From: a virus
Reading direction: 5' to 3' (one strand)
Length of the DNA stretch: 31,113 nt
IMG/VR virus record: IMGVR_UViG_3300048005_000086
Location: 1-31,113 of that record
Numbering within the stretch: position 1 is the first letter of the stretch; every line of letters starts with the position of its first letter. The notes beneath the pieces were generated by a model. It saw nothing but the letters and a program-made list of their open reading frames with translations. It made no database searches and had not been told where the DNA came from. Shown in pieces: positions 4,557 to 27,214 of the stretch. The position numbers and the translations under genes were made by a program.

Positions 4557-5261
4557 ATGGTAAGTATAGATAATGTTTATAAAACAGTTTTAAATATCCT
4601 TAATAAAGAAAACAGAGGTTATATTGTGCCTAGAGAGTTTAATACTTTAGCTCTGCAAGCACAAAGCGAAATTTTTGAAGGGTATTTTTCTTCAAGAAAC
4701 TATGCTATAACTAATGACTCGGATTACTCCGATATTAAAAAAAATATAGAGGAAAAAATTGCTGAATTTGAAAACGAGGAAACAATAGCAGCCGGGTCTT
4801 TTAATAATGCTGCGGGTAACACTACAACTAGTTATTACGCTTACCCTACTAATTTTTATAGACTGAGTAGCGTTGGAGCAAATAATATATCTGTACAAGA
4901 AGTTACTAATAAAAAATTAAACTATATAAACAGGTCACCGCTTATGAAGCCTACAGCAAATAATCCTCTATATGTTAGGCATGAAGGTGGTGTAGTAATA
5001 CACCCAACAAGCGGCATTTCTAGTATATTAATAAATTATGTAAGAAAGCCAGCCGATCCTCAGTGGGTTGGTGGTACTACAGCGGGTCAAGTAGTTGCTA
5101 ATACTTCAGCGGCCACTTATAAAGACTTTGAGCTACATAGCTCTGAATTTCCTGAGCTAGTAATTAAAATATTATCGTATGCAGGTGTTATTATAAGAGC
5201 AGCCGATATTGCACAGGTTGCAACCGCAAAAGAACAACAAATAATTCAATCTGAAAGATAA
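4557..5261 (+). CDS. Head-tail connector/ring protein, 234 aa
   Basis: The N-terminus (IDNVYKTVLNILNKENRGYIVPREFNTLA, read in parts) has the pattern NKE-x-RGYI-x-P-x-EFN-x-LA-x-x-AQ-x-E-IF, which I associate with connector or ring proteins encoded after the capsid gene in crAss-like and marine flavobacterial podoviruses. Residues 80-200 are beta-rich, and a short helix closes the protein. These proteins stack below the portal and join it to the tail. The stop codon TAA overlaps the next start (TAATG at 5259-5263), so the two connector genes are probably translationally coupled. Assignment is by remembered family pattern and position; the exact ring number is not known. Confidence 0.65.
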   Translation: MVSIDNVYKTVLNILNKENRGYIVPREFNTLALQAQSEIFEGYFSSRNYAITNDSDYSDIKKNIEEKIAEFENEETIAAGSFNNAAGNTTTSYYAYPTNFYRLSSVGANNISVQEVTNKKLNYINRSPLMKPTANNPLYVRHEGGVVIHPTSGISSILINYVRKPADPQWVGGTTAGQVVANTSAATYKDFELHSSEFPELVIKILSYAGVIIRAADIAQVATAKEQQIIQSER

Positions 5262-6211
5262 TGGCAGAAACAAGAAAACTTTATAACGAAAGAGGTTATT
5301 ATGCTAAACATCAAGGAGATACTGGAAATATACCTTCAGACTTTTTAGGATTAGGATATTATAGAAGAACAAGTTTAGAAGATATTATAAACAACTTTAT
5401 TGTTGCTTACGTAGGTGAAGAAAAAGCTTTATCAAAAATACCAAGATATGAAGTTGATTTTTGGGCCCAAAGAGGTATGCAAGAATTTAGTTATGACGTA
5501 TTACATAGTGAAAAAAGTATAGAAGCTGAACTGGGACCAGCAAAAGCATTTCCTTTGCCACAAGATTACGTGTCTTTAGTTCAGGTTTCTTTTGTAGGAG
5601 AAGACGGAATAAAAAAATGTTTATTAGCTAAAAAAAATACAGGTAATCCTGATGCACCTTTGCAAGACGGCAATTTTGAATATACATTCGATAGTAATGG
5701 TGATTTGCAATTAGCAAGCTTATCTGACACAATGACTCGTTTTCAAGATGAAAATAATCCTGCTAACACATCACAAACTGCAGAAGAGTATTATTATTCA
5801 AATTATAATAATGATAATTTTTCTTATTTTAATAAAAGATTTGGTGGTAATCCAGAAGACATGAGTGCTACTGGTTATTATGTTTTAAGTGAAAAAGACG
5901 GTTTAATTTACTTTGACGGATCTTTTTCAGCTTCTAATACTAATACAGTTGTTATTGATTATATATCTGATGGTATAGCTGATAATGGAAATTTGGCTAA
6001 TGTATTTATACCTAAGTTGGCAGAAGATGCTTTGTACGCTTACATGTTATATAACTTAGCTAAAGTCCGGCCTGCTGCAGCGCAGCTTGCTGCTTTGTAT
6101 AAAAAAGAGGCTAGTGCTAAGTTAAGAAATGCAAAAATAAGGCTAAGTAATTATAATTTAAAAGAGCTTGCTCAAGTATTAAGGGGTAAAGCTAAATGGA
6201 TTAAACACTAA
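5261..6211 (+). CDS. Head-tail connector/ring protein, 316 aa
   Basis: A conserved block at about residues 41-105 reads EDIINNFIVAYVGEEKAL, then RYEVDFWAQRGMQEFSYDVL and FPLPQDYVSLVQVSFVG. This FWA-x-RG-x-QE-(F/L)-xxD followed by LPxDYVxxVxVS pattern is one I know from structural connector proteins of crAss-like and marine podoviruses. The middle (130-230) is Asn/Tyr-rich. The end is helical and basic (KLRNAKIRLSNYNLKELAQVLRG, read in parts). The start overlaps the stop of the preceding connector gene and the next start follows only six bases after the stop. Probable role: ring subunit joining portal and tail. No enzyme motif is seen. Confidence 0.65.
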   Translation: MAETRKLYNERGYYAKHQGDTGNIPSDFLGLGYYRRTSLEDIINNFIVAYVGEEKALSKIPRYEVDFWAQRGMQEFSYDVLHSEKSIEAELGPAKAFPLPQDYVSLVQVSFVGEDGIKKCLLAKKNTGNPDAPLQDGNFEYTFDSNGDLQLASLSDTMTRFQDENNPANTSQTAEEYYYSNYNNDNFSYFNKRFGGNPEDMSATGYYVLSEKDGLIYFDGSFSASNTNTVVIDYISDGIADNGNLANVFIPKLAEDALYAYMLYNLAKVRPAAAQLAALYKKEASAKLRNAKIRLSNYNLKELAQVLRGKAKWIKH

Positions 6212-6217
6212 AATTAA

Positions 6218-7957
6218 ATGGCAGAAAGCAAAAGAACGTTTCAGGCCGCTCGGATGAACAAAGATATTGAGGAAAAAATATTAAAACCGGGTGAATATAG
6301 AGACGCACTTAACGTTAGTGTAGATTTTTCAGAAGATGGAAATATTGGCGCTATTGAAAATTTAAAAGGTAATGAGCTTTTAGCTGGACAAGACATTTTA
6401 GGGTTAAGCTCTTCATCTAACCCTAATGCTAAAGTTATAGGAAGCATTGCACACCCTGAAGAAGAAAAAATATATTTTTTTGTTACAGGCGATAAAATGG
6501 ATGGTATATTTGAATATGATTTAACAGCATCTTCAAATCAAACAAAACCTATTATATTGGATAGCTCTGTTTTATCAACCACTATAAATAATATTTTAAC
6601 ATTTTCTGAAATAAATGCTACTGCTGGTGTTGCACAAGATGGTACAATTTCTGTAGATGCTAATATAGATGTAGAATCTTTAACACCTAATTTTAGTCCA
6701 AATACAACGGGTTCGAATGCCGCAAGAAAGGTAACTGTTAGAGGAATTGTACCAGATGAATTTGATAATGGTGGAGAAATGTTAGTAGGCAGTGTTTCGG
6801 CAACTCAGGCTAGCATAGCAGCTCCTGAGGTTATAACACTAGAACCTTTAACTATAGGCGAAACTACTGCTACTTTATCTGCTTCTTTAACAAATGATAG
6901 CGTTAATGTTACATCGCAAGGTTTTTACTATGGATTTAAAGCAGCAAGTAACACAGCATTAACTATATCAGAATTAATAAGTGGTGGCACTGGAATAACA
7001 AGGTTTACTGTAACAAATTCAAACGTTAGGAATAATTTTACTAAGGATATAACTAGTTTAACTAGCGACAAACTTATTAGCTTTGCTGGGTTTGCAATCA
7101 ACTCAGTTGGAACAGGAAATGGAAATGTAAAAACTTTTACTACAGATGCGCCACCTCCTGTTAACAGAATAAGCGGCAATGAATACGTTATTGTACCTGG
7201 TATACAAGATCAGACTTCTGGCAATGCTACCGACGAACTTTCTCATAGACAAGTAGGATATGGAGGTTTTTTTAAATCTAGTGGTGATTGCTATTTAAAT
7301 ATAGCAGGCCCATCTAACGACGGCTTAAGGGCAAATGCAACTGTTACAACATCTTTGCACACTAGTCTTTCTGGGTTTTCGTCGTCTCCGTCTGGTTTAA
7401 CTTTTGCAATAGCCAGTGGCTCCGCTACCGCTGTAGGGATAAAACAGGCATCTATATACGTAAGTAATTTTTCTGCTAATACAAGTTACCAAATAACTGT
7501 ACCAGCTATAACCGGCATTCAAGCACAAACTATAAGAATAAATAAAGGGACTCCATCAGGCACCTATTTTACGTCGACACTAACTTTAAATTTAACAGGA
7601 GTGCACGTTGCTAATGCCCACATTAATTCTTATAAATATAACAAAGGCATAACTTTTGCGCCAACCGCAACATTTATATTAGGACCGGTTTTATCAGGCG
7701 AAAAGGCGCAGTGTATAATTCCTTTAAATAATGTAACCACTGAAATAACTTCAACTTCTGCTTCTGCTTTTGCAAGTTCATTTAATCCAGCAAATATTTC
7801 TGTAACAGTTACTGGAAAAACAGAAGGCGTTGATTTTGATTATTATGTTGAAGACACTTCTACAGCAATATTTGGGGCCGTACCTGGAATTATATTTGAG
7901 GGTACACCGTCTTTGTTGGGAAGTACACCTACCGTTAATATAACATATACTACATAA
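6218..7957 (+). CDS. Tail protein, first segment of a split beta-propeller-type protein with an FN3-like module, 579 aa
   Basis: Residues about 8-55 contain AARMNKDIEEKILKPGEYRD followed by ALNVSVDFSEDGNIGAIENL, the hallmark start (MNKDLDER-x-x-PNG-x-YRDAMN) of a large tail protein of marine and crAss-like podoviruses. Residues 72-115 (KVIGSIAHPEEEKIYFFVTG) are blade-like. In homologues I remember, one chain carries on through the matching parts of the downstream ORFs at 8208 and 12381. Here the segment instead runs into beta-sandwich material. Residues about 205-312 look like a Bacteroidetes-style FN3/Ig-like module (TLSASL, then SQGFYYGFKA, then FAGFAINSVGTGNGNVKTFT). The last 260 residues are Ser/Thr/Ala-rich beta structure. 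The stop overlaps the next start (TAATG). Confidence 0.65.
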   Translation: MAESKRTFQAARMNKDIEEKILKPGEYRDALNVSVDFSEDGNIGAIENLKGNELLAGQDILGLSSSSNPNAKVIGSIAHPEEEKIYFFVTGDKMDGIFEYDLTASSNQTKPIILDSSVLSTTINNILTFSEINATAGVAQDGTISVDANIDVESLTPNFSPNTTGSNAARKVTVRGIVPDEFDNGGEMLVGSVSATQASIAAPEVITLEPLTIGETTATLSASLTNDSVNVTSQGFYYGFKAASNTALTISELISGGTGITRFTVTNSNVRNNFTKDITSLTSDKLISFAGFAINSVGTGNGNVKTFTTDAPPPVNRISGNEYVIVPGIQDQTSGNATDELSHRQVGYGGFFKSSGDCYLNIAGPSNDGLRANATVTTSLHTSLSGFSSSPSGLTFAIASGSATAVGIKQASIYVSNFSANTSYQITVPAITGIQAQTIRINKGTPSGTYFTSTLTLNLTGVHVANAHINSYKYNKGITFAPTATFILGPVLSGEKAQCIIPLNNVTTEITSTSASAFASSFNPANISVTVTGKTEGVDFDYYVEDTSTAIFGAVPGIIFEGTPSLLGSTPTVNITYTT

Positions 7958-8205
7958 TGGCAGAAATAATTTTATATCCCGCAAATGAAATAAACTCAAA
8001 AACTATTTTTGAAGTTCCCGCCGATATAACAATAGACGCAATACATAATAAATATCAGTTGTCTTTAAATTTTAACGAAGGAGACACTATTAATTCAGGT
8101 GCAAATATATATGTAGAAAATAATATATCTATTGAGGATTTAGAAATAATAAATGGAGTTAGACAATCTGACGGATTTGTTACAGTAGAATATACAGAAA
8201 TATAA
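7957..8205 (+). CDS. Small protein inserted between split tail-protein segments, 82 aa
   Basis: I do not recognise this protein. It starts on the last base of the previous stop codon (TAATG) and ends two bases before the next ATG, so it is translated in step with its large neighbours. It is acidic, has no Cys, no signal peptide and no membrane segment, and alternates hydrophobic and polar residues in short stretches (TIFEVPADITIDA, FVTVEYTEI) as in a small all-beta domain. Start sequence MAE matches the MAE starts of neighbouring tail genes. It may be a detached beta domain of the split tail protein or a partner or chaperone for it. Both ideas are inference from position. Confidence 0.6.
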   Translation: MAEIILYPANEINSKTIFEVPADITIDAIHNKYQLSLNFNEGDTINSGANIYVENNISIEDLEIINGVRQSDGFVTVEYTEI

Positions 8206-8207
8206 AT

Positions 8208-11200
8208 ATGGCAAGTAATATATTACAATTTGAACCAACACGTTTGATTACAGCAATTAACATAGTAGATGATATGTTATTTTATTCAGATGGTGTTACA
8301 GAGCCTAAAAAAATTAATATAAAAAAATTTAGAGGAAATGCTACAACTGGAGAGTTTGCAAATGTAAAAGTTGATCATTCTTCTGGAACAACTCATATAT
8401 ATGGCAGACCTTTTGAAGAAAGAGATATAACAGTAATAAAAGATCACGCAGGCATCTCTGATAATAAACTTTCTACAACAACTATAACAGAAAATTTTGG
8501 TATAGGAAGGGACGATTTAACTGTTAATGAAGTAACAGTAAAAAAACTAGAAATAGCTGATGGAGAAAGCTCTATAAAACAAGAAAATCCGGCTAAGGGA
8601 AAAGTTGAATTAGATTTTAATTCTACATCAATAGATTTAGTTGAAATGGAAGCAAAAGCTATTTTTGGCGGAGGATCTTTAATAGACGGAGGATTTATAT
8701 ATTCTCAAACCGACAGTACTATAGAGGATTTAATAAAAAATCAAGGTACTACTTCTACAAAAGTTACAGGTGACTATGAAATAGACGGCGGCAGTGCTAC
8801 CTCTATATTTAGAATAGAAGGCATTGATACAAATTCTCCGGACTATGATTCTTCATTATCAACAGGAAAACTTTGTGCTGTTGCTTTTATAAAGCTAAGA
8901 GGTCAAGATGAAATAATTTATAGCCCTGTACAAACAATAAATGTATATAATCAGGTTGCTTCTTCAACAGCACCTACGGGCTTAGTTACTCAGCCGGAAA
9001 AAAAAATGAATCAAACAGATTATGAATTTTCAGCTAAGTATTTAAGTAATGGAGGCACACCTATAACTAGAGCGGGGTTTTACGTAGCTGAAGGGAGATT
9101 AAATGATAATGATCCAGCTCCTACTGTACAGGAAATAATTAATAATGGGCATAATTTTCCTGCGGAGCATAGGGACCCAAATGAAATATATATTACAAAA
9201 GCACCTAAGCCAAATCATTTTTATTATTATGTTCCTTATATTGAAAATAAAAATGGCATTATCTATGGTGACGCTTTAACGACTTCTAGCCAAGCAATAA
9301 AAAAGTTTAAGTCACAAACAACATTACCCCCCACTGTTTATACTACTTCGGTAATTGATGCGGCCAATGCTAATACCCTTATAATTTCTGGTCATACTTA
9401 TGGCAATATTAGAAATAGAAAAATGCTCCACCCAAAAATGCAAGTTACAGAGGTTGGCTTTTATTTTAGAAATTCGCCAGATTTTACAAGACAACAGGAC
9501 GTTATTAAAGGTCCTTTTTCTGGCAGCCCATTAAAAAATACTTCAGGAACATTTAAAGTTCCCGTAACAGGTTATGATTTTGAACAAGGAGGGCCATTTA
9601 ATTTAGATATTGCTAGTTTTTTACCAGGCAATTTAGCGCAAGGAGAACAAGTTGCATATGTTGCTTATATAAAACATACTGGTTTTGCAGGAACTAATGA
9701 AAAAGCAGGCGGAGTGAATTATTTTAAGGTTCCGGTAAATACAGTTGATAATCCTGTACTTGCAATAACTAGCTCTACATGGGATACAAAAGCTAACTCA
9801 ACTTCTAACGCAGGCGCTAAAGATATAGAGGTTAAATATGAATTAGATCTTATTAAGTTTGATGATACAAAAACATTAGAAGATGTAGGTATCATAGTTT
9901 CAAAGCCTTTAACTGCGCAAGAAATAGCAAATAGTAAAGATGGAAAATGGGATACAGTTGAGGAAGTTATAAATTCTTCTAATTCAACTAGTATACAGCT
10001 TTCTAAAAGCGAACTTACATTTTCACCTCACGCGGGCAGTAATAATAAAGGTAGATATACAACCACAAACCCTGTAGAAATACCTGGACTAACGCATAAT
10101 GAATTTAATTATTTATCTAATAATAATATAAAACCTTTAGGTGAGAATTGGGCTGCTGTTGGTTATGTAGTAGTGGACGGCAAAACACATTATACAGATG
10201 TATTTAATATAGATTCTGATGCTTCAAACACTAAAGTAAAAGATAAAGTAACTAAAAATATTATAGGAGCACCGTTAGTTTTAAATAAAAATTCGTTAGA
10301 GCAGAGCACTACAAATATTACAAGCAGCGGCGTTACTCTAAATGCAAGTATTAATAACACGGGGAAAGATATATCTGAAATAGGATTTTATGTAAGTACA
10401 GTTAAACCTCCAGCAGCTGCAGTTGGTGGTGCAGCTCTTAGCGTTCCAAGATCTTTAGCGGATTCAAGAAATCCCGATTTAGATGCGTGGATAGCTGGCG
10501 CAACAAAACATGCTTCTACAGATGTAAATACAACTACCGCTAATAACCATATAAATCAGTCAACAAATGATTTTTTAGATTTTAAAGCGGTTATAACAGG
10601 ATTAAATCCTAAGAGTAAATACTATTATGTACCTTATGTAAAACCTGTACAAACAACAAACGTGGGTGGTGATGTTTCTTATAACGGGTCTGAAACTTTT
10701 AATACCATAATTAATTCTAATCATTATGGTTCCTTACAAAGTTTTAATACTGCACAAAATACAACTAACTTTTTGCATCCTCCTATGATTTCTGTAAGAG
10801 ATGTAGAATTAATATCAAAAATTGAAGCTAAAGTTGATATATTACTAACTTATAGAAGTGGGACAGCTGCTACAATAACAGATATTGGTATTTTTGTTAA
10901 AAAAGCTTCTTTGTTTCCGCAGCCATTTGCAAATCAATCAGGTAATGCCGCTACAATGGCAAGTGCTACTAATAGGATTAGAGTAGACTATGGTGATTTA
11001 TTCGGCCCTGGAACTACTTTTGTAGCTAATCTTTCTAATAAAGATATTGGTGGCACAAGTAAGCAGTTTTATACAGTAAAAAATATAGAACAAGTAGACT
11101 ATTATGCTTCTGCTTTTGTTGAATACAGTCATAATGGTACTTCTCATACTATTATTTCAGACTATAAATTAATAAATAATTCTATTAATGCTAACATTAC

Positions 11201-12368
11201 AGTTCCTGAAATTATATATTTTGATATAATACCTCCAGACACTTCTGGATTTGTTTTAAATCCTGGAACTTCAAATGAAAGAGCTTCGGCAGGATCTAAA
11301 AATAGGCTTAAAGCGGAATTTTCATATGAAAGAAAGCCTATTCCACAAATAGTTGAATACGGTTTTTATTTTTTAGAAAACTCTAGTTTGTCAAAGCCTA
11401 GCTCACCAGACAATTTTTTAACTCAATATAATGATTCTAGTAACGCCTGGAATAAACATAATGTTAAAAATTATTCTCAATTATCCCCAGTCAGTAGAGA
11501 TAGTTTAGGAAAAAGCGGCTCATATAGTAACTATTTGCCATTTTTTGAAAACTTTCCAAGCGCTGTTGTAGGAAAAAGATTTTATATAGTACCTTATTTT
11601 ACATATAAATTTGATAATGTAGATCCTCTTAAAACGCAACTAGGGGATCAGGTACAGGAATTTTATATGGAAGATCCAACTCCTGTTGAATCTAAAATAG
11701 AGACTACTAATGATGCGATATATTGGAGTCCTCACGCTCCGCCAGGAGCACTAGCGGGCGTTTTTAAAAACGGCGTTTCTACATTTGCAAGTGCAGATTT
11801 AAAAAGACGCGCTGCTGCAGGTTTATATAGGCCACCTTATGTTCAAATAAACATAAATTCTAATGTTGAATGGCAGTATGTTTCTGGAGCATACAACGAT
11901 AATTCTTTGTCAAGAGGATTTTCTTCTAATTTAACAGAAAATCAAAACACAATTCTTGGTGGAAGATACAGCGGAGGAACACTGTCTGATGGTGGAGGAG
12001 CTGTTTCACAATATGGAGGAAGTGGTCCCGATGGTGCTACTATAGTTAGATCTGGTAATGCGTTAAGAATATACCCACCTAAACCTAGTTATAATAAAAT
12101 AACTGGCGCGGCTGAATGGCCGGGAGGTTTCATAAACGATCAATTACCTTGGAATGGTTCAGAAATGCATATAAAAGGAGGATATAACATTTATATTTTT
12201 CCTGCTTCTTTAGATTTAAAAAAGTTTAGTGTGTCTACTAATCCTAGAAATTATAAAAATATTCCAACTAACTATTACCTTAAAGGCGGCTGGTTATTGC
12301 AAAACGCACAAGAAACAATTGAGGTTAGGTATGATACATCAGGTATTTTAAGTTATCCTAGTATATAA
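8208..12368 (+). CDS. Giant tail protein: propeller segment plus about seven Ig/FN3-like modules and a C-terminal domain, 1386 aa
   Basis: Residues 1-80 (TRLITAINIVDDMLFYSDGV, then TEPKKINIKKF, later RDITVIKDH) match the middle part of the same remembered tail-protein family as the ORF at 6218. Then come about seven degenerate modules of 110-165 aa, each with a G-(F/I)-(Y/F/I)-x-x-x strand at residues 161, 290, 417, 561, 726, 894 and 1052. Most also have a later aromatic strand such as YYYVPYIE (339-346), YYYVPYVK (805-812) or FYIVPYFT (1125-1132). Residues 1165-1386 form a different Gly/Trp/Tyr-rich domain (GGRYSGGTLSDGGGAVSQYG) that could be a tip or receptor-binding domain. No protease or glycosidase motif is evident. 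Likely an elongated tail or fibre component; receptor binding is inference. Confidence 0.65.
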   Translation: MASNILQFEPTRLITAINIVDDMLFYSDGVTEPKKINIKKFRGNATTGEFANVKVDHSSGTTHIYGRPFEERDITVIKDHAGISDNKLSTTTITENFGIGRDDLTVNEVTVKKLEIADGESSIKQENPAKGKVELDFNSTSIDLVEMEAKAIFGGGSLIDGGFIYSQTDSTIEDLIKNQGTTSTKVTGDYEIDGGSATSIFRIEGIDTNSPDYDSSLSTGKLCAVAFIKLRGQDEIIYSPVQTINVYNQVASSTAPTGLVTQPEKKMNQTDYEFSAKYLSNGGTPITRAGFYVAEGRLNDNDPAPTVQEIINNGHNFPAEHRDPNEIYITKAPKPNHFYYYVPYIENKNGIIYGDALTTSSQAIKKFKSQTTLPPTVYTTSVIDAANANTLIISGHTYGNIRNRKMLHPKMQVTEVGFYFRNSPDFTRQQDVIKGPFSGSPLKNTSGTFKVPVTGYDFEQGGPFNLDIASFLPGNLAQGEQVAYVAYIKHTGFAGTNEKAGGVNYFKVPVNTVDNPVLAITSSTWDTKANSTSNAGAKDIEVKYELDLIKFDDTKTLEDVGIIVSKPLTAQEIANSKDGKWDTVEEVINSSNSTSIQLSKSELTFSPHAGSNNKGRYTTTNPVEIPGLTHNEFNYLSNNNIKPLGENWAAVGYVVVDGKTHYTDVFNIDSDASNTKVKDKVTKNIIGAPLVLNKNSLEQSTTNITSSGVTLNASINNTGKDISEIGFYVSTVKPPAAAVGGAALSVPRSLADSRNPDLDAWIAGATKHASTDVNTTTANNHINQSTNDFLDFKAVITGLNPKSKYYYVPYVKPVQTTNVGGDVSYNGSETFNTIINSNHYGSLQSFNTAQNTTNFLHPPMISVRDVELISKIEAKVDILLTYRSGTAATITDIGIFVKKASLFPQPFANQSGNAATMASATNRIRVDYGDLFGPGTTFVANLSNKDIGGTSKQFYTVKNIEQVDYYASAFVEYSHNGTSHTIISDYKLINNSINANITVPEIIYFDIIPPDTSGFVLNPGTSNERASAGSKNRLKAEFSYERKPIPQIVEYGFYFLENSSLSKPSSPDNFLTQYNDSSNAWNKHNVKNYSQLSPVSRDSLGKSGSYSNYLPFFENFPSAVVGKRFYIVPYFTYKFDNVDPLKTQLGDQVQEFYMEDPTPVESKIETTNDAIYWSPHAPPGALAGVFKNGVSTFASADLKRRAAAGLYRPPYVQININSNVEWQYVSGAYNDNSLSRGFSSNLTENQNTILGGRYSGGTLSDGGGAVSQYGGSGPDGATIVRSGNALRIYPPKPSYNKITGAAEWPGGFINDQLPWNGSEMHIKGGYNIYIFPASLDLKKFSVSTNPRNYKNIPTNYYLKGGWLLQNAQETIEVRYDTSGILSYPSI
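8640..11687 (+). repeat. Protein-level array of about seven degenerate Ig/FN3-like modules
   Basis: Within the 1386-aa tail protein, residues about 145-1160 repeat a common pattern: an opening beta strand, then a strand of the type EVGFYFRN, EIGFYVST, DIGIFVKK, EYGFYFLE or RAGFYVAE, a variable loop, and a strand of the type YYYVPY or AYVAYI near the end. Spacing between the GFY-type strands is about 129, 127, 144, 165, 168 and 158 residues. DNA identity between modules is not obvious, so the duplications are old or the modules were acquired separately. A similar module occurs in the ORF at 6218 (GFYYGFKA, residues 235-242). Confidence 0.6.
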
Positions 12369-12380
12369 TTAATAAAAAAT

Positions 12381-15300
12381 ATGGCAGAAAAACAAAAGCC
12401 TTTTGAAAAAATATTTCCTTACATTAGCTATAGATACAAATATGATGATGGAGAGTTTTCACCATACGCACCATTTACAGAAGTACAATTTGTTTCAAAA
12501 AAACAAGACACAACTGTATTAAACGATAGGTACGAAAAAGGGTTTAATGTTTCTATGGTTAACGATTTAGAAAACATTGTAATCAACGACATTCCTAAGG
12601 GGCGTGAAGATGTTGTATCTATTGACATACTATATACAGAGTCTATTTCAAGCACGGTATATATACTAAAAACAGTAGAAATAGATCCTGCTGAAAGAGG
12701 TCAAGGCAGTTTAGACGGTATAATAATATCTAAAAGAGCATTTGGAGCAGCTCTTCCAGATACAGAGTTAACTAGACAGTTTGATTCTGTGCCAAGATCT
12801 GCTAAATCTCAAGAGTTTACTGCTAACAGAATAATGTATGGTAATTATTTATCTAAATATAATCAAAATAAAAACGATTTAGGTGGTAAAGGTTTTGAAA
12901 TGGCTGTTAGCCTTTCGGGTCAGCTAGATCCAGTCTCAGGTCCTTCTGTTAAAACAAATAGAACCTATGATATTGGAGTATCTTATTTAGACAAGTATGG
13001 CAGGCAGGGTGGATTATTAACGCAAACTACAGGCAAAAATACAGATAACACTTCTTTAATAAAAACAGCTTTTTGTTATGAAAGCAGAATAAAATTAGCT
13101 GCACAAATTATTAGTGGTCCTCCAAAGTGGGCTAAATATTATAAATACTATATTAAAGATGTTTCAACCGATTTTTTTAATTTAACTGCGTTTAATACGT
13201 ATTTAGATGGAGAGCCAGGCGATACAGAAACAGCTAATGTATATTTGCAATTTGATTCTAAAGATAGAAACAAATTAACAGAAGATTCTTTTTTAATGCC
13301 AAGAAGAGATGGTATGTCTGGCACAGACAACAGCGGTACTGTTGTAGAAGAACTTTCAAGGTTGCCTGTGTTAGACATTGAAAATGAAGCGCCTGATATT
13401 GTTAAGGCTCAAGTTATTGAAAGAACTGCAATTAAAAAGTTTGTGATTAAAGATGATTTTGCAAAATTTCAAAACGGTTACGGCCAAAATACAGCAAATT
13501 TTGCTGTTGGGGTTAACCCTGATCCTGCTCAAACTCAGCAAATATTTTTAGTTGAGCATGGGAGTAGTTTTACAACAAATTTAATTATTTCACAATTAAA
13601 CGCATATATAACCTCTCAAGGAGGTTCTACTCTATTTGAGCCAAAAGCATTACCATTTACGCCTGGAAATACTAGTCATTATCAAACGGTTTCTATGACG
13701 GGCTTTTCTGAAAGATTAGCTTTACAACTTTTTCATAATGATCTTAAAGACTCTAATCAAAATAATATTAAAACTTCAAAAATATTAATTGACGAAATAC
13801 AGCTTGGTGATAACGGAAATACTTCTAATCCTGAAAGAAATCTTTTAAGAATTACTTTGTCAAGCAGATTAAATGACGATAACGTAACAACAAATTTAAA
13901 TGGCATAGACGTTGTGCCTCCACACCCTTTGAGTGGTACTAGTGCATGGGATATGGAGGCTCCGGGTATTGCTAGCATTTATTCTGATATAGATATTAAG
14001 TTTTTTAAATTAGGTTTATCTGAAGCAGGCCAAAAAAAATTAAAAGGTTCATTTTTCGTTAAAGTTCCTAGAAAAACAGATATTACTTCTTTTACAGAAA
14101 TACCTATAAAGCAAACTGAATTAGATGAAGAAGGTAAAGTAGAAAAAATAAATTTTTTAGATTTTGAAACAGAACCAGGGGATGATTCAAATCTTAATTT
14201 ATATTGGGAATCTTCAAAAATATTTTCTGTAAGTAATGATCACGGGCAATCAAACACAATACCATGGTCTAATTGTATAGCCACAATAGGCGGCACAAAC
14301 AATAAAACTTATTTAGAATCTGTAAAAATACAAGATAAATTTAACTCTACATCTATGGTTAAAGGAATTAGGGTTAATACACCCGAAGCTAACTATAGTG
14401 AAGAACTTCGAAAAAACGGTTTAATATTTTCTGGATTATATAATTCTAGAACTGGTATAAATGAACTAAATAAGTTTAATTTAACAGATGGAATCACAAA
14501 AGATCTTGAGCCTAACTATGGCGGTATTCAAAAACTTTTTGCATTAGATACAAACTTATTAGCATTTTGTGAAGATAAAGTATTTAAAATACTAGCAGAT
14601 AAAGATGCATTGTTTAATGCAGACGATGGCGTTAATGTAACTGCTACAAACTTAGTGTTAGGTCAAGCAATGGGCTTTGGTGGTAACTATGGAATTAGCA
14701 CACATCCGGAATCTTTTGCATATTTTAATAATAATATATTCTTTACAGATGCGAAACGCGGTGCTGTAATGCAATTAACGCCTTCTAATGGACAATTATT
14801 CCCTATTAGTAGAAACGGCATGAGTAACTTTTTTAGAGACCGATTAGGAGCCTTAAACACTTCTAATAAAATTATAGGCATATACAATGGTTATAAGAAA
14901 ATGTATATATTATCTATACAGGGATATAATCCTAGCCACGCATCTATAGGCACGGAAACAATACCTAATGAAACAACAGAAATTACAGCAGGTTATAGTT
15001 TAGCCTCACAAGGCTGGACATCAAGATATAGCTATATACCTGAAACAGGTGTAACTCTTAATAATAAATTTTATACTTTTAAAAATGGCAAAGCTTATTT
15101 GCATAATTCTAATACAGCTAATAGGAATAACTTTTATGGCACTGGATATAATTCAGAAGTACAGGTAATATTTAACGATAACCCTACGGTTATTTCAGAT
15201 TGGCTATCTTTAAATTATGAAGGTGGCGAAGGCTGGGAAGCTGTAGAAATAGTAGGCGATCAAGATGGAACTTATAATATTACCAATGTACGACTACTTG

Positions 15301-15560
15301 ATTCAGAAGAGTCTGGTTTTTTAGGTTGGTTCTTTAAAGAGGGTAAATACCACGGCGCTATTGTTGGCACACAACCGCTGTATGCAATACAAGCTGGTCA
15401 AGCTAATTCATTAACAGATTTTGTATTACAAGCAACGGGAACTACTGAAGACATTTCAGGAACTAAAGGGTTTTTTCAAAAAACTAGACTTAGGAATTCA
15501 TCTACAACAGCAAAAGAATTATTTGCTGTAAGTTCGGAATATTATATTAGTCAAACTTAA
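12381..15560 (+). CDS. Tail protein, main segment of the split beta-propeller-type protein, 1059 aa
   Basis: The first 40 residues (YISYRYKYDDGEFSPYAPFT) match an internal, not N-terminal, stretch of the tail-protein family whose start is in the ORF at 6218. Further matches to the remembered family are FDSVPRSAKSQEFTANRIMY (134-153), the block near residues 684-760 (SRTGINELNKFNL, then GIQKLFALDTNLLAFCEDKV, then NADDGVNVT), FAYFNNNIFFTDAKRGAV, and the C-terminal RNNFYGTGYNSEVQVIFND and SLNYEGGEGWE. The repeated short beta motifs suggest a propeller-rich tail hub, tube or stabilisation protein. The start at 12381 follows AATTAATAAAAAAT, so this is a genuine separate start. It probably assembles with the products of 6218 and 8208 to rebuild the ancestral fold. 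Confidence 0.7.
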   Translation: MAEKQKPFEKIFPYISYRYKYDDGEFSPYAPFTEVQFVSKKQDTTVLNDRYEKGFNVSMVNDLENIVINDIPKGREDVVSIDILYTESISSTVYILKTVEIDPAERGQGSLDGIIISKRAFGAALPDTELTRQFDSVPRSAKSQEFTANRIMYGNYLSKYNQNKNDLGGKGFEMAVSLSGQLDPVSGPSVKTNRTYDIGVSYLDKYGRQGGLLTQTTGKNTDNTSLIKTAFCYESRIKLAAQIISGPPKWAKYYKYYIKDVSTDFFNLTAFNTYLDGEPGDTETANVYLQFDSKDRNKLTEDSFLMPRRDGMSGTDNSGTVVEELSRLPVLDIENEAPDIVKAQVIERTAIKKFVIKDDFAKFQNGYGQNTANFAVGVNPDPAQTQQIFLVEHGSSFTTNLIISQLNAYITSQGGSTLFEPKALPFTPGNTSHYQTVSMTGFSERLALQLFHNDLKDSNQNNIKTSKILIDEIQLGDNGNTSNPERNLLRITLSSRLNDDNVTTNLNGIDVVPPHPLSGTSAWDMEAPGIASIYSDIDIKFFKLGLSEAGQKKLKGSFFVKVPRKTDITSFTEIPIKQTELDEEGKVEKINFLDFETEPGDDSNLNLYWESSKIFSVSNDHGQSNTIPWSNCIATIGGTNNKTYLESVKIQDKFNSTSMVKGIRVNTPEANYSEELRKNGLIFSGLYNSRTGINELNKFNLTDGITKDLEPNYGGIQKLFALDTNLLAFCEDKVFKILADKDALFNADDGVNVTATNLVLGQAMGFGGNYGISTHPESFAYFNNNIFFTDAKRGAVMQLTPSNGQLFPISRNGMSNFFRDRLGALNTSNKIIGIYNGYKKMYILSIQGYNPSHASIGTETIPNETTEITAGYSLASQGWTSRYSYIPETGVTLNNKFYTFKNGKAYLHNSNTANRNNFYGTGYNSEVQVIFNDNPTVISDWLSLNYEGGEGWEAVEIVGDQDGTYNITNVRLLDSEESGFLGWFFKEGKYHGAIVGTQPLYAIQAGQANSLTDFVLQATGTTEDISGTKGFFQKTRLRNSSTTAKELFAVSSEYYISQT

Positions 15561-18210: not shown

Positions 18211-21200
18211 ATGAAAAAATACATAATTGATAACGTAGAGTATACACTTGAACAAGTTGAAAGTGCCGCTAGAGATAACGGGGTAGACATTGACACGTAT
18301 ATTAATGACATGGGAGCCCAGGTCGTTGATTCAACTGAAACTGAGCCAGACCCTGTGGAAAAGCCAACAGCTCCTGCGGAGACAACTGCGGCTGTAGGAG
18401 CGACGAACGAAAATACGGGTTCGCAGTTGGAAAAACCTTTATCGGAATTACAAGAATATAATCAACAAGATTTAGATTCTATACAAAATAGCTTTAATCA
18501 GGGTAAATTTAGAGAAGACCAAAGGTTAGCCTATGAACAATACCAAAAAACTGGTAATCTTTCAAAAGAGTTACTTCCTGAAAAACAGGGTGATAAAACT
18601 TTTAACGATTATGTTACTGATCTAAAAGACCAAATTGAGGGTAACGGCATTGAAAGATTTAAAAACTGGAGTTATAATGTTTTTGGGCCGGATGGTATTG
18701 GAGGCCTACCAGGGCCATCTACATTAGCTAGATTTCAAGAAGCATCGGCAGCTTATGCATTAGCTTTAGATAAAATAAAAGGAACAGAAGAAAGCGAAAA
18801 AGGAGCTAAAAAAGAATTTGAAAAGCTTTTAGAAATTCAAAAAATGCAAAAACCAATGCCCTCTATAACAGACGAAGACTCTGAGGGGTTGTTAGGGGTG
18901 CTAGCCGGCATTTTAGGTGATGCGACCCAAGTAGGTCAATCTGTTATACCTACAATAGCAGCAAGCGTTGGCGGAGCAGCGGCAGGTGGGGCTGTAGCGG
19001 GTCCAGCAGGCGCAGCTGTGGGAGGAACGGTAGGAGCTATTACGTCAACAGCTTTGCAAATCGCACCGTCTTTTATTACAGATTATAATTTAACTAAAGC
19101 TGAAGAAAAATATAAAAATGATAACCTGAAGAGTGATGAAGCTTTAGAAAAACTTATTGAAGAAGACGAAGTAGAAATGCTTGTGCCTCTTACAGGAACG
19201 GCAATTGCTATGATACCAGAGTATGTAGGTTTTAAAGGAATAAGCAAATATCTTTTAAACTCAACCGCGGGTAAATCTGTTTTGTCTAAAGTTGCTCGAT
19301 TAGGCGTAACATCAGGAAAAGAAGGTTTAACAGAGGTTATACAATTGTTCCCTGAAGGTGTAAATAATGCGCTAGCAGCGGGAGAGGACGTTGAGGATGC
19401 TGTTGTAGAAGGTCTACAATATACTTTTGAAAACACAAAAGACACGTTTTTATCTTCGACTGTAGGTACAGCTGCCTTTGGATTAGGTGGAAAAGCAGCT
19501 AAATCAGGAGGCGCTAGGGCATGGCGCAAAGCAAGGAATATGCGCGTTGCTATTGACGAAGGCAAAATGGAAAGTGTAATGGACGAAATATCTGAATTGA
19601 ACGTTCAGAGAATGGAGGCTAATGAACCTGAGTTAAAAGAAGCTCTTACTGTAAAGATAAACGATAAAGTAAAAGAATTAGACGCTTTAGACACAAGAGC
19701 AAATAGCATAATGAGTTTTGCTAGTGATCAAGATTTTAATGAAATTACAAAAATTGAAGATCTAAAAAAGCAGTATATTAAAAAAGTAAAAAATATACAA
19801 AATAAAAAAGAACAGTTAGACCCAAAAGAATACCAACAATCTTTAGAAATTTATAAAGAAAAATATTTAGAAGCTCAGGCTAGAATTAAAGGTGTTGCTA
19901 ATAAAGTACAAGAAGAAGCAGAAAACGCAACTCCCGAAGATGTATCGGCTAGAACAGTTAAAAATGCAAATGCTATTAATAATGGATTTAATAGCAATAC
20001 AATGCAACAAACAAATGAACAGACTGGTAAAACCGAACTAACTGATAAAGGGCTAGAATTTTTTCATAACACGCTTGTTCCGGGTATGTCTGACCTTGTT
20101 ACAAGCATTGTAAACCGTAATTTTAGGCAAAATAAAGAATTTGGCGAATCAAGATATAAAAAAGAAGATTTTATTGCAGATTTACTTTACGCACCTGATA
20201 AAAATAAAGCTTCGTCATTAATTCGTTTATTAGCTAGTTTTAAACCTGAAAAAGATCAGTTTTTAACTACATATATAACAAAAAATTTAAAGCTTAGGTC
20301 TGGTCGTATTTTAGAAGAACGTGTAGGGTCACAAGCTACAATTGGCGGCACCAGTATAGATACCCAAGAAGCTAGCGAAATACAGGCAGAAGATACTCAG
20401 GTTCCGGCTATGCAAGGCCCTAAATTTACAAAACGACTTGGGCTTTCTGATGATATAGTTAATAAAGCTAGAAAAGCCGCTGCTAAAGCTTTGGCTACTG
20501 CTAAAAATGTAGACTCTAAAACATTTACTACAGACATTGTTAACTCAATTAACAATGAAATATTTGATGATATAAGAAAAATAATCCCTAAACCAAAAGA
20601 GCGAGAAGCCTTTATGGAACAATTTGCCGGGGCAATATGGGACGCAATACCATCAAGTTCATTAGCAAAAGCTACTAGAAATCAAACATTTCAAAGTTGG
20701 AATTTAAATGCCCCTACTAAAAAAGCTTTTGTAGATTATTTTTTAGGTAGAGATCAAGAAGGTTTAGCTGATAATACAATAAACGATAGGGCAAGAAGAC
20801 AATTACCTGAATATTTGGCTAAGGCAATCGGCGCTGAATATGCGCAAGATTTATTAGAAAACGATTCTGAAGTACGTGAAAGATTCCGTTTAGTACAAGA
20901 ACAAGAAGTTAAAGAAGCCGCTAAAAGTATTATTGAAAATGATGATTCAAATTGGTTTGATTACAAAAAATTTCAAGAGTCAACGGAAGTTTCAGAAGAC
21001 GACGCGGCATCTCAAACTAAAGATTGGGATAAACAACTACCTGAAGGAGAAAAAACTTTAGTTATACAGGGTAAAGAGGCAAAGCACAAAAAAGCAAAAG
21101 AGGAATTTAAAGGCTGGGTAAAAACAGTTATGGCAAAATATTTTCCAAAAGATTTCTTTTTTATAGCTGGATCTGGACATTTAACTAACTCTTCGTCTAG

Positions 21201-24200
21201 AATGGCATTTGCTAATCAAGAAAATGTTGCTCAAGAACTAGAGTCTTCAGAATTTGCTGAAGATACATCTGGAATAAACTGGAATTTAGTTGGTAGAATT
21301 GATTACAAAGGGTTAGGTCAACAAGCTAAGGTATATGTAAAAGGTTTATTTAAAGGTAAAAATAAAGCTGAAGTTACTTTAGCAGATTTGAAAAAGAGCT
21401 TCAAAAAAATACAAGCTCAAGGAGTTGAAAACATGAAAACTCTTAAATTTGCAACCCAGCAATTTGCTAAAATGTATGCAGACGATAAAAGCACAGCTAA
21501 ATTTATAGCTACGTGGTATAAGTCCGCATCAAATAATCAAAATCATATCTTAAGATTTGCCGCTCCTTTAAAGGCATTTTCTAGAGATCTTTCTTCTGGT
21601 ATGAGAGAAGAACACACTATGCCTTCAAGTTTAGTTGGGAAGTATTTATTTAATTCTATATTGAATAATGACGTAGATAATGCGTTTAAAAATGTAGAAA
21701 AAAATTATTTCCAAGTAGCATTGTCTGTTAGCGATGATAATAAGCTAAAAGGAAAAGATTTTAACTATACATCTAAAATGCCAAAGGGTTGGAAGTTTAC
21801 AGATAATACTTGGGCTCGTTATTTTAATGATTTGGTTAATAATAATAATGGAGGTATTGATCCTAACGGAATTGAATTTTTTGAAACAGGCAAAACAGTT
21901 GCTGAAACTTTTGGTGCACAAGCGAATCAAAATACTGCAGATGTAAAAGCTGCTCAACAAAAAGTTATACAAGAAAAAACTGAAGATAATTTTGAAGTTT
22001 TAATTAATAGAGCTATAGGTAAACTAGAAGATTACTTAGGTCCAAAAGGAGCTTTACAGGCTAACTTTGCGGCTGTACCTATAAATATATTAGTTGGAGG
22101 ATTAAGAGCTACTAAACTAGCTTATAGAGGTTCTAAAAACCTTACTACAGCTCTTCAAGAAGGCTATAAAAAGGTGAAAAACTATATGTCGCAGAGAGAG
22201 TGGCTAGAGTTTACTAAAAAAGCTGTTTCTGGAGTTAGAACAGGACCAGACGGTAAAACTGTTGCATTAGCTATAGCAAATGAAAATGCTATAAAAAATG
22301 AGCAAGTTAGAAAAACAAAACTTGATATTCTTAAAAAAGCTGGTGTGTATAGCAAAGAAGATGATAATAAAACTAGTCAAGAACTTAATGAAAAATTAAA
22401 AGAAAAAGACGACGCTATAAAATCTTCTAATAGGACTGAAGGCCTTGAAAGAAATTTTAGAAAAATATTAAATACCAAAAAAGATAAAGGTGGAAGACCA
22501 TCAAAATGGTTTATACCACCAAATGCAGAAGACATAAAAGGTCTGTTGTATGCTTTTTTACCTAAAGGTAAAGCAGGTGTTGAAGCTAAGAAATTTTTTA
22601 ATTCGGCTATATTAAAGCCTTACTCTGATGGAATTGCTGCAGCTGAAGCTGAAATATTGCAGAAGGCTAAGCTATTTAAACAGCTAGAAAAAGATTCCGG
22701 TGTAGACTTAAATGAAAATATAAAGGGTACGCCTTATACTTTAGGTGACGCTATAAAAGTTTATAACTGGGATAAACAAGGTATTGAGGTAGATATTTTA
22801 AAAGATGAATATTTAGATCAATTAATTGGAGCTGTTGAATTAAATCCTAAAGCCAAGTATATGGCTGAACAAGTAGCTAATAATTACGAAATTACGTATG
22901 ATAAAAATTGGCGGAATATTCCATTTAATAAATCTATTTTTGATGCTATAAACTCCGGCACGCGAGGCAAAAGTTTAGAAATATTTAGTCAAAACGTTGA
23001 TGCTATTTTTAATAAAGATAATTTAAAAGAAATAGAAAATGTTTTCGGTAAGAAATATGTACAAGCATTAAGCAATACATTAAAAAGAATGAAGACTGGG
23101 CGTAATAGAATTAGTACAGATGCTCAGTCAAATGCTTACATGAATTTTATAAATAGATCTGTAGCCACCACAATGTTTTTTAACACCCGTTCTGCTGGTT
23201 TACAGCTATTGTCTGCTTTAAATTATATAGGCCAAGATAATAATAATATATTCCAAGCTACTGCTGCTTTTGCAAATCAAGCACAATGGCAACAAGATTA
23301 TAATAAATTATGGAATAGCGATTATTTAACTAACAGGCGTAAAGGTGCTAAGTTCGATGTACTTGCTGATGAAATTGCCGAAGGCGATCCAAAGGGCTTA
23401 AATAAACTTTTAAAAGCAGGTTTTTTACCTACAAGATATGCAGATAGTTTTGCTATAGCTTTAGGAGGGGCGGCATTCTATAGAAATAGAGTTAATGCTT
23501 TAATGAAAAAAGGAATGTCTCAACAAGAAGCTGAAGAGCAAGGAATGAAAGATTGGGTAAAAACTTCAGAAGAATCTCAGCAATCTTCAGATCCTTCAAA
23601 AATATCTGAAATTCAAGCTTCTGGCGTTGGTAAAATAATATATGCTTTTGCAAACACTCCTTTTCAATATGCTCGTATTGTTAAACGTAAGCTACAAGAT
23701 ATTACTTCTGGTAGGTCTTATGCAGAAGGCGGTATGAATCAGGTTAGGAAAGATATTCAAACTTCATTATATTATACAGCCGGACAAGCTTTGTTATTTA
23801 ATGCATTGCAATCTGGACTTGTCGCTGCTTTAATGGGTGGTAATGATGATGAAGAAGAACTTGAAGAAAAAACAATTTTAGCAACAGAAAGGGCATTAAC
23901 TTCATTTGCTAAATCAACCGGCAACCCGGGTGCTATAATAGCTTCAATATATAGTATGATAGACGAAGCTGATAGTCAAATTGAAAAGAAAGGTAGAATT
24001 GATAATCCTTACAAAATAGCTTTAGAAGCTACAGGAATATCGCCGCCGGTAAATGCTAAGTTAAATGATATTGTTGCCATTGGAAATATTTATAAATATA
24101 ACCATAAGCAGATTGAAAAAGATCCGTTTGAACTTTCTATAAATAATCCTACGCTAGAAATAGCAGGTAACGCAGCTTCGTTTGCGGGAGTTCCTTTAGA

Positions 24201-24720
24201 TAGAGTTATAAGAAAAACTCAAAATTTAAATGCTGCTGTAAATGAAGAATTAGACGCTTGGACTAGACTATGGTTAGTCGCTGGTTGGAGTAAATGGGAA
24301 TTAGGTGTTGATGACAAACAGTCTGGACCTAAAGCTAAAGCTAAAGCTAAAGCTAAAGCTAAAGCCAAACCCAAACCCAAACCTAAGCCTAAGCCAAAAT
24401 CTGCAGTAAAAAAATTAAAAAATGGTGTAGCAGGACAAGCTAATAGAGATGGAACTATAGAGATAGATCCTAATTTATCACCAGTAGAAAAAGCTAAAAC
24501 AGTTGCCCATGAAAAGCAGCATGTTAAAGATATGAAAAGCGGAATGCTCGATTATGATGATAACTTTGTATATTGGAAAGGTAAAAAGTTTAAACGGAAA
24601 AGCGGAAAGATACTTTATAATGGCAAATACCATATAGAAGGTGATCCAAAGTTGCCGTGGGAAAAACGCGCGTATAACGCAGAGCCTACAACTAAGCAGG
24701 CTAAAAAGCTATATGCTTAA
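18211..24720 (+). CDS. Giant internal virion/DNA-ejection protein with C-terminal zincin domain, 2169 aa
   Basis: The gene is at the end of the virion block and has the length of the largest ejection proteins. The start (KKYIIDNVEYTLEQVESAAR) resembles the short N-terminal module seen on many marine-phage internal proteins. Residues 40-75 are a Glu/Pro/Thr/Ala linker with unusually GC-rich codons. Residues about 228-292 are a strongly hydrophobic Ala/Gly/Val region, a likely membrane-inserting segment. Residues 430-2030 are mainly charged helix with coiled-coil stretches. A (Lys-Ala)6(Lys-Pro)5 linker at 2041-2062 leads to a final domain with VAHEKQHVKDMKSG: H2100, E2101 and H2104 form HExxH, with E2151 or E2158 as candidate third ligand. 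No lytic transglycosylase motif was recognised. Confidence 0.65.
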   Translation: MKKYIIDNVEYTLEQVESAARDNGVDIDTYINDMGAQVVDSTETEPDPVEKPTAPAETTAAVGATNENTGSQLEKPLSELQEYNQQDLDSIQNSFNQGKFREDQRLAYEQYQKTGNLSKELLPEKQGDKTFNDYVTDLKDQIEGNGIERFKNWSYNVFGPDGIGGLPGPSTLARFQEASAAYALALDKIKGTEESEKGAKKEFEKLLEIQKMQKPMPSITDEDSEGLLGVLAGILGDATQVGQSVIPTIAASVGGAAAGGAVAGPAGAAVGGTVGAITSTALQIAPSFITDYNLTKAEEKYKNDNLKSDEALEKLIEEDEVEMLVPLTGTAIAMIPEYVGFKGISKYLLNSTAGKSVLSKVARLGVTSGKEGLTEVIQLFPEGVNNALAAGEDVEDAVVEGLQYTFENTKDTFLSSTVGTAAFGLGGKAAKSGGARAWRKARNMRVAIDEGKMESVMDEISELNVQRMEANEPELKEALTVKINDKVKELDALDTRANSIMSFASDQDFNEITKIEDLKKQYIKKVKNIQNKKEQLDPKEYQQSLEIYKEKYLEAQARIKGVANKVQEEAENATPEDVSARTVKNANAINNGFNSNTMQQTNEQTGKTELTDKGLEFFHNTLVPGMSDLVTSIVNRNFRQNKEFGESRYKKEDFIADLLYAPDKNKASSLIRLLASFKPEKDQFLTTYITKNLKLRSGRILEERVGSQATIGGTSIDTQEASEIQAEDTQVPAMQGPKFTKRLGLSDDIVNKARKAAAKALATAKNVDSKTFTTDIVNSINNEIFDDIRKIIPKPKEREAFMEQFAGAIWDAIPSSSLAKATRNQTFQSWNLNAPTKKAFVDYFLGRDQEGLADNTINDRARRQLPEYLAKAIGAEYAQDLLENDSEVRERFRLVQEQEVKEAAKSIIENDDSNWFDYKKFQESTEVSEDDAASQTKDWDKQLPEGEKTLVIQGKEAKHKKAKEEFKGWVKTVMAKYFPKDFFFIAGSGHLTNSSSRMAFANQENVAQELESSEFAEDTSGINWNLVGRIDYKGLGQQAKVYVKGLFKGKNKAEVTLADLKKSFKKIQAQGVENMKTLKFATQQFAKMYADDKSTAKFIATWYKSASNNQNHILRFAAPLKAFSRDLSSGMREEHTMPSSLVGKYLFNSILNNDVDNAFKNVEKNYFQVALSVSDDNKLKGKDFNYTSKMPKGWKFTDNTWARYFNDLVNNNNGGIDPNGIEFFETGKTVAETFGAQANQNTADVKAAQQKVIQEKTEDNFEVLINRAIGKLEDYLGPKGALQANFAAVPINILVGGLRATKLAYRGSKNLTTALQEGYKKVKNYMSQREWLEFTKKAVSGVRTGPDGKTVALAIANENAIKNEQVRKTKLDILKKAGVYSKEDDNKTSQELNEKLKEKDDAIKSSNRTEGLERNFRKILNTKKDKGGRPSKWFIPPNAEDIKGLLYAFLPKGKAGVEAKKFFNSAILKPYSDGIAAAEAEILQKAKLFKQLEKDSGVDLNENIKGTPYTLGDAIKVYNWDKQGIEVDILKDEYLDQLIGAVELNPKAKYMAEQVANNYEITYDKNWRNIPFNKSIFDAINSGTRGKSLEIFSQNVDAIFNKDNLKEIENVFGKKYVQALSNTLKRMKTGRNRISTDAQSNAYMNFINRSVATTMFFNTRSAGLQLLSALNYIGQDNNNIFQATAAFANQAQWQQDYNKLWNSDYLTNRRKGAKFDVLADEIAEGDPKGLNKLLKAGFLPTRYADSFAIALGGAAFYRNRVNALMKKGMSQQEAEEQGMKDWVKTSEESQQSSDPSKISEIQASGVGKIIYAFANTPFQYARIVKRKLQDITSGRSYAEGGMNQVRKDIQTSLYYTAGQALLFNALQSGLVAALMGGNDDEEELEEKTILATERALTSFAKSTGNPGAIIASIYSMIDEADSQIEKKGRIDNPYKIALEATGISPPVNAKLNDIVAIGNIYKYNHKQIEKDPFELSINNPTLEIAGNAASFAGVPLDRVIRKTQNLNAAVNEELDAWTRLWLVAGWSKWELGVDDKQSGPKAKAKAKAKAKAKPKPKPKPKPKSAVKKLKNGVAGQANRDGTIEIDPNLSPVEKAKTVAHEKQHVKDMKSGMLDYDDNFVYWKGKKFKRKSGKILYNGKYHIEGDPKLPWEKRAYNAEPTTKQAKKLYA
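24331..24396 (+). repeat. Hexanucleotide tandem repeat coding a Lys-Ala/Lys-Pro linker
   Basis: Five perfect AAAGCT units (24331-24360) and one AAAGCC are followed by five related units (AAACCC, AAACCC, AAACCT, AAGCCT, AAGCCA). They encode six Lys-Ala and five Lys-Pro pairs. Such a repeat can change length by slippage without breaking the frame. It separates the helical ejection protein from the HExxH domain. Confidence 0.9.
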
Positions 24721-26512: not shown

Positions 26513-26513
26513 A

Positions 26514-26879
26514 TTAATTAATTATATATATTAAGTAGCCTATTATAATATTTAAATTAAGAATTACTATATTCCATTGCTTTGCTAAAAATACTTGCGG
26601 AGTTAAAAGTAAGGCTCCTATTATATATGTTATAGCACCCATATTATCATATTTCAAAAGATATGGGGATAACATTATAAAAGCAGAGCCCATATAACCT
26701 ATTCTATTAGATAGCCTTTCTTTAGGATTTAATTTTTTATCTTTAACAAGTAATCTTAAAAAAGATCTTTTAAACCTGAACTCACAAATAGAGCATGTTT
26801 TTTTACCCGGGTGTTTAAAATAAAAATTACTTTTAGGTTTATTACAAACGTTACATACTTTCATTTTAGTTTTTGCCAC
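26514..26879 (-). CDS. Zinc-ribbon membrane protein, 121 aa
   Basis: The N-terminal 45 residues are basic and hold two CxxC pairs, C9/C12 (CNVC) and C29/C32 (CSIC), which make a four-cysteine zinc ribbon. The remaining 65 residues form probably three membrane helices (about 58-76, 79-98 and 103-120). The second ends in LLLTPQVFLAKQWN; the PQ motif faintly recalls PQ-loop/SemiSWEET proteins, but this is not a firm assignment. The start overlaps the end of the upstream 113-aa gene by 19 bases and its stop is one base from the nrdA start, so it is part of the RNR operon. A holin-like, superinfection-exclusion or transport role is possible; the sequence does not decide. Confidence 0.7.
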   Translation of the reverse strand: MAKTKMKVCNVCNKPKSNFYFKHPGKKTCSICEFRFKRSFLRLLVKDKKLNPKERLSNRIGYMGSAFIMLSPYLLKYDNMGAITYIIGALLLTPQVFLAKQWNIVILNLNIIIGYLIYIIN

Positions 26880-27202: not shown

Positions 27203-27214
27203 TTTAATTTTATT

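Follow-up and report, generated by a model that had tools for sequence, protein, structure and literature searches.

Fission of a crAssvirus-type tail-muzzle gene into three reading frames, two of them with large appended tails

The DNA analysed here (the window) is a whole viral record, linear and 31,113 bases long, whose virion module runs from left to right. Three of its open reading frames, A, C and D, are fission products of one crAssvirus-type tail-muzzle gene (gp44-like, PHROG 14478). The usual muzzle is a single polypeptide; here three ORFs, separated by two breaks, jointly carry the N-terminal, Ig, middle and C-terminal propeller segments of the protein in order. The explanation that best accounts for the data overall is that a single muzzle gene underwent fission, that A, C and D reassemble non-covalently as a propeller, and that their added tails act as host-contact arms; we assign this reading a probability of about 0.8. 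The relevant features are as follows.

4557..5261, + strand: ring / head-tail adaptor protein (context; PHROG 14543, virion structural, E 6.8e-42; same synteny in relatives)
5261..6211, + strand: second virion structural protein, adjoining the muzzle genes (context; PHROG 13977, E 6.8e-37; same synteny in relatives)
6218..7957, + strand: ORF A, 579 aa, muzzle N-terminus, blade 1 and appended domains (PHROG 14478; sB1 HMM)
6218..6562, + strand: A residues 1-115, scaffold segment B1 (approximately crAss001 gp44 2-110; dN/dS 0.12)
6605..7147, + strand: A residues 130-310, linker and FN3-like sequence (assigned by eye)
7148..7957, + strand: A residues 311-579, distal module that appears to be swapped between phages (identity comparisons)
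7955..7959, + strand: TAATG overlap of A stop and B start (sequence)
7957..8205, + strand: ORF B, 82 aa, conserved small protein (found between A and C in relatives)
8208..12368, + strand: ORF C, 1386 aa, blade 2 and long appended tail (sB2 HMM, E 8.9e-19 at the N-terminus)
8208..8441, + strand: C residues 1-78, scaffold segment B2 (approximately crAss001 gp44 110-160; dN/dS 0.12-0.16)
8964..11675, + strand: C residues ~253-1156, predicted tandem FN3/Ig-like beta-sandwich string (AlphaFold2, Foldseek, VIA)
11676..12365, + strand: C residues 1157-1386, C-terminal tip (low-confidence model)
12381..15560, + strand: ORF D, 1059 aa, all of the muzzle from the first Ig domain onwards (PHROG 14478, E 1.1e-86; AlphaFold2; VIA)
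12402..12869, + strand: D residues 8-163, IG1 segment (sIG1 HMM, E 2.3e-41)
14142..15398, + strand: D residues 588-1006, C-terminal propeller segments P1-P3 (sP1, sP2 and sP3 HMMs; profile match)

Upstream of ORF A, profile searches identify portal-, head- and ring-type genes; the product of 4557..5261 also shows a weak match to Pfam SU10_adaptor (E 0.003, under the cut-off). In the window and its relatives alike, the muzzle genes directly follow these ring/adaptor-type virion genes and precede large cargo or ejection-type genes. All four ORFs (A, B, C and D) begin with ATG. The B stop and the C start are two bases apart, and a stretch of twelve bases, A and T only, separates the C stop from the D start; C and D share a reading frame in the window, one TAA apart. 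A preliminary description, made from the sequence alone, had placed ORFs at 6218, 8208 and 12381 and noted a new start codon at each break, with an A/T leader or a TAATG overlap, and both the ORFs and the junctions are as it described. The peptides it quoted as ORF starts have the correct letters but begin 12 to 13 residues downstream of the true N-termini, which read MAESKRTFQAARMNKDIEEK... in A, MASNILQFEPTRLITAINIVDD... in C and MAEKQKPFEKIFPYISYRYKYDD... in D. ORF B is found between A and C in nine related contigs (L001, L002, L003, L022, L023, L110, L113, L115 and L116), and a shorter version occupies the same place in L111.

To locate the muzzle scaffold, HMMs for individual segments were derived from 124 single-chain relatives carrying the N-terminal, middle and P1-P2 segments in one ORF, with no window sequence included, and run against all 353 six-frame ORFs of the window. 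The B1 model matched residues 1-124 of A only (E 7.8e-34, 109.7 bits), the B2 model matched the N-terminus of C only (60.1 bits), and the IG1, M1, P1, P2 and P3 models matched D only, with E values between 9.6e-25 and 2.1e-50 (sP1 9.6e-25, sP2 2.1e-50, sP3 5.3e-27). Together, the matches keep the segment order of single-chain relatives, and conserved family columns are retained in B1 of A and B2 of C. The best match of any segment model elsewhere among the 353 ORFs had an E value of 0.095. ORF B matched no muzzle segment, and hence the scaffold is carried by three ORFs rather than four; the earlier suggestion of three or four thus holds at the lower number.

Independent profiles and intact genes give the same layout. 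PHROG 14478, a virion structural family with 1474 profile positions, matches A over positions 2-142 (E 1.2e-17) and D most strongly over the stretch 863-1202. The A N-terminus, the C N-terminus and D align in order onto the single chains of the isolates phi38:1 (1324 aa), elemoE (1470 aa) and Gundel (1386 aa), and the three pieces also map in order, as far as P2, onto that of the metagenomic phage ctfjg026 (1551 aa). B1, B2 and IG1 occur in one chain in 137 distinct relatives. The proposal that these ORFs are consecutive stretches of one tail protein is thereby borne out, by these relatives as well as by the crAss001 muzzle: homologues place all three N-terminal stretches one after another in a single chain, rather than in unrelated domains of distinct proteins. 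ORF C gave no match by tblastn against 50,697 phage records, because its scaffold part is short (~60 residues). With general libraries (PHROG, Pfam), A is matched in part and C not at all, so annotation by such libraries misses the true extent of the muzzle.

Structure prediction ties D to the muzzle of crAss001. An AlphaFold2 model of D, built on 70 sequences, has a pLDDT of 81.2, and among PDB structures Foldseek ranks the crAss001 muzzle first for it (7qok_A, E 7.1e-24). VIA-align superposes the model on 7qol_P with a Z score of 12.9 over 665 residues, model residues 3-1056 falling on chain residues 177-1371. Among PDB sequences, neither phmmer with D nor hmmsearch with profile A1 found a muzzle; structure comparison alone did so. 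Similarly, hhalign returned no match when crAss001 gp44 was used as a single sequence, and succeeded with a profile of nine Crassvirales muzzles with gp44 as master. In that comparison, gp44 1003-1332 paired with the 588-1006 region of D (probability 99.75, E 2.8e-27), and the N-terminal 400 residues of Crassvirales muzzles were also matched (E 1.4e-19). Pfam crAss_MUZ_C hits D at E 3.6e-4 and 21.4 bits, below its 27-bit cut-off.

The first 176 residues of gp44, absent from D, are the parts matched by A 1-115 (gp44 ~2-110) and C 1-78 (gp44 ~110-160). The published crAss001 structure shows gp44 as a hexamer whose propeller has seven blades, with the IG1 domain (163-292) between blades 2 and 3 (PMC10172136). 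Given this layout, break 1 sits approximately where blade 1 meets blade 2, and break 2 where blade 2 meets IG1. Segment spacing within D is similar to that of phi38:1 and leaves no space for two substitute blades; D carries no spare blades. One could suppose that D by itself forms a reduced, five-bladed propeller and that the N-termini of A and C have become docking domains elsewhere on the tail. D is indeed an ORF in its own right and gives a good model by itself (pLDDT 81), and in a mirror-tree comparison, which carried little information, the B1 and B2 distances follow those of D only moderately (Spearman 0.41 and 0.59). Against this, B1 and B2 remain strongly similar to single-chain blades, with conserved columns kept, and the loss of two blades from a hexameric gate would be a large change for an otherwise conserved protein. 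The constraint on the stubs also equals that on D. Nei-Gojobori dN/dS values relative to L005 and L115 are lowest in the three scaffold parts (A 1-115, 0.12; C 1-75, 0.12-0.16; D, 0.155) and lie at 0.45-0.62 in A 115-208 and in the C tail; one caveat here is that dS is near 1-2, making all of these values approximate. The similarity of the values indicates that the A and C stubs are held as tightly as the D scaffold, and this, with the retained resemblance to single-chain blades, is as expected if the blades still pack against the same neighbours. We consider a five-bladed D unlikely, and infer with good support that each tail-tip subunit has a seven-bladed propeller made up jointly of A, C and D.

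The same two breaks, with all three pieces, are seen in 15 other contigs whose D identity ranges from 54 to 100%, and A and C are also separate in two further contigs that end early. In a quick tree of 70 rows, for which the program gave a long-branch warning, the split rows form one clade (100% SH-aLRT) on a long stem, adjoining a single-chain group. All split-clade examples are metagenomic contigs from uncultured phages. Related muzzles are found in isolates that infect Cellulophaga, Flavobacterium, Tenacibaculum and Maribacter, and by analogy the host of the split clade is likely to belong to Bacteroidota.

This recurrence bears on how the breaks arose and whether they persist in the protein. 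The reliance on metagenomic contigs might raise the suspicion of sequencing or assembly error, but in 15 contigs the breaks fall at the same homologous positions, while the frame relations of A to C and C to D, and the spacers, differ among relatives. These data argue against error, including the frameshift errors raised as a possible source of the breaks, and we regard that origin as having a negligible chance of being correct. They argue equally against programmed fusion, in which stop readthrough, frameshifting or protein splicing would yield one long virion chain. The point in its favour is that C and D share a frame in the window, with a single TAA between them; however, nearly all relatives start C and D at an ATG of their own that follows an A/T-rich leader, TAATG shows no evident slippery sequence, and Pfam finds no intein in A, C or D. 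Fusion in some form is very improbable, and its readthrough and frameshift versions are ruled out by frames that vary between relatives. A still slimmer chance attaches to the idea that the pieces are decaying or chimeric remnants, with a working single-chain muzzle elsewhere in the phage genome. As the window is a 31 kb linear fragment, absence of a second muzzle there says little on its own, but no second copy is present in the 27-65 kb records of the split clade, and those of 52, 60 and 65 kb hold the split set only. Moreover, every piece is under purifying selection, and the split arrangement persists at D identities down to 54%.

Both chains that lie 5' of a break, A and C, bear large C-terminal extensions. 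AlphaFold2 models the C tail (187-1386) as a string of beta-sandwiches with a mean pLDDT of 67. The leading Foldseek matches of this model are Ig/FN3 ectodomains (best E 3.3e-12), and VIA gives Z scores up to 9.7 across two FN3 domains. Pfam FN3 found no match in 16 members at an E value of 0.05. On the basis of the model, C ~253-1156 looks FN3-like. The extra beta domains predicted for the ends of the first two pieces are thus supported by a model in C, and in A by sequence only.

The tails evolve faster than the scaffold. Residues 130-310 of A are 47-57% identical between distant clade members, and in L001-L003 the A tail is a separate ORF that starts near A residue 210. L005 and L009 share 81% identity in distal A, 68% in D and 26% in the C tail; the window and L116 share 78% in distal A and 50% in D (partial in L116); and L007 and L114 share 88% in D and 43% in distal A (310-end). 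Judging from these comparisons, the distal A module (310-end) appears to have been exchanged between phages in a mosaic pattern. Fast change and exchange of the tails would fit a role in host contact. Single-chain relatives hold inserts of up to 448 and 1184 residues at the window's two break sites, and hence a break is no strict requirement for appendages there.

In the mechanism that we favour, fission with reassembly, A, C and D would be co-translated and then assemble non-covalently, with blades 1 and 2 fitting in beside the five blades left in D to complete a seven-bladed gating propeller at the tail tip. By analogy with crAss001, six copies of the rebuilt propeller subunit would be present. 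The TAATG overlap and the two-base spacer suggest that assembly may be ordered by coupled translation. The FN3-like C tail and distal A would project outward and touch the host surface, a step with less support than reassembly. After fission, every arm would have a free C-terminus and a gene to itself, making loss, replacement and recombination easier while leaving the gate untouched.

Comparison with known systems places the window's arrangement within the family. The segments of crAss001 gp44 (PDB 7QOK, 7QOL; PMC10172136) are homologous to those of A, C and D and in the same order, and its gene, too, directly follows a ring-type virion gene. A single chain of 1371 aa makes up gp44, whereas the window has three, of 579, 1386 and 1059 aa, with long added tails. 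In the Cellulophaga phage phi38:1 (Pervagoviridae), A 1-161, the C N-terminus and D 3-994 map in order onto gp097 (1324 aa), which is unbroken and has no large insert at the two break sites. The D model also matches, in Foldseek, the propeller tail-tip proteins P22 gp10 (the tail hub, aligned over residues 128-472) and T7 gp12 (the nozzle), both of which, unlike the muzzle of the window, are single chains; the crass fold has been described as absent from these two proteins (PMC10172136). A closer precedent is the Cellulophaga phage phi18:3 (Pachyviridae), whose broken muzzle, gp114 and gp115, has an upstream chain lengthened by 500 aa at its C-terminus. There the break lies near the C-terminal domain (P2|P3) and yields two chains, compared to breaks flanking blade 2 and three chains in the window. 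Both gp114 and gp115 are annotated from MS/MS proteomics of the phage, a precedent for both pieces of a broken muzzle being virion proteins.

Breaks occur at other sites in the family as well: at P2|P3 in phi18:3, ctfjg026 and 40 others, at P1|P2 in Panino, and at M1|P1 in L152, L169 and L178. At P2|P3, all 42 split phages (42/42) have an extension of 108-1149 residues on the upstream chain, and all 78 unsplit phages (78/78) have a gap of only 2-35 residues. The split state at this site needs a minimum of six changes on the tree, three of them forced by well-supported branches. A testable rule follows for P2|P3, namely that a large extension always comes with a new gene start, unsplit chains having at most 35 extra residues. 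More tentatively, and at somewhat less than even odds, the multi-chain propeller gate may be a plug-in scaffold in which each break is a socket for the exchange, gain and loss of arm chains. Such a principle would have arisen at several sites (blade 1|2, blade 2|IG1, M1|P1, P1|P2 and P2|P3) and offer a general route to diversify host contact with the DNA gate unaltered.

Searches of open-licence PMC papers gave nothing relevant on split muzzles or split propellers, and no paper on fission of this gene, although an earlier description elsewhere is possible. The split muzzle is a real and conserved form of a known tail protein, and one that is undescribed as far as that literature shows. A beta-propeller usually closes within a single chain. 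If the proposed assembly is true, a DNA-gating tail protein whose seven-bladed propeller is built from three chains would be an unusual case of split-protein design in nature. If the reading given here is true, the split muzzle would also expose a general way to add arms to a gated tail and would offer a direct view of how short-tailed Bacteroidota phages diversify the parts that touch the host.

In the closest relatives of the window (loci L001, L002 and L003), ORF A, the first of the three muzzle genes, is divided again near residue 210. The new ATG is preceded by an A/T-rich leader, and the ORF released by this break (369-376 aa) contains none of the blade segments. ORF B sits between A and C in many, though not all, of the contigs sharing the window's split, and no known family was found for it.

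L001 4441-4464, L002 4320-4343, L003 4456-4479: second break of ORF A
Window 7957-8205: ORF B, small conserved protein with C-terminal end YTEI

Three other features of the window lie outside the muzzle genes.

35-964: portal-like ORF, matching 509-788 of the 827 positions of the portal profile
18211-24720: 2169-aa ORF, located where cargo or ejection proteins are encoded in crAss phages
24767-31081, minus strand: nucleotide-metabolism block

Since only the C-terminal part of the portal profile is matched, the record's left edge probably cuts the portal-like gene short. A Pfam search of the 2169-aa ORF gave no match, and small PHROG families match its C-terminus only (about 2074-2160), one of them a metallo-protease (E 5e-4). 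The minus-strand block encodes large and small chains of ribonucleotide reductase, Holliday junction resolvase-like and MazG-like proteins, and a thymidylate synthase fragment.

Within the same muzzle family, chain breaks also occur between the successive segments M1, P1, P2 and P3, all of which lie in ORF D in the window.

P2-P3 break: L012, L011, L043, L069 and 38 further loci
M1-P1 break: three loci, L152, L169 and L178
P1-P2 break: L014 (Maribacter phage Panino)

Where P2 and P3 are split, the upstream chain carries a C-terminal extension of 108-1149 aa (42/42), compared to a gap of only 2-35 aa in unsplit muzzles (n = 78). Gut crassviruses also have long insertions without a break, as the Crassvirales muzzle gene of crAss-like phage cr108_1 (L192 1429-7524) encodes a single chain of ∼2031 aa.
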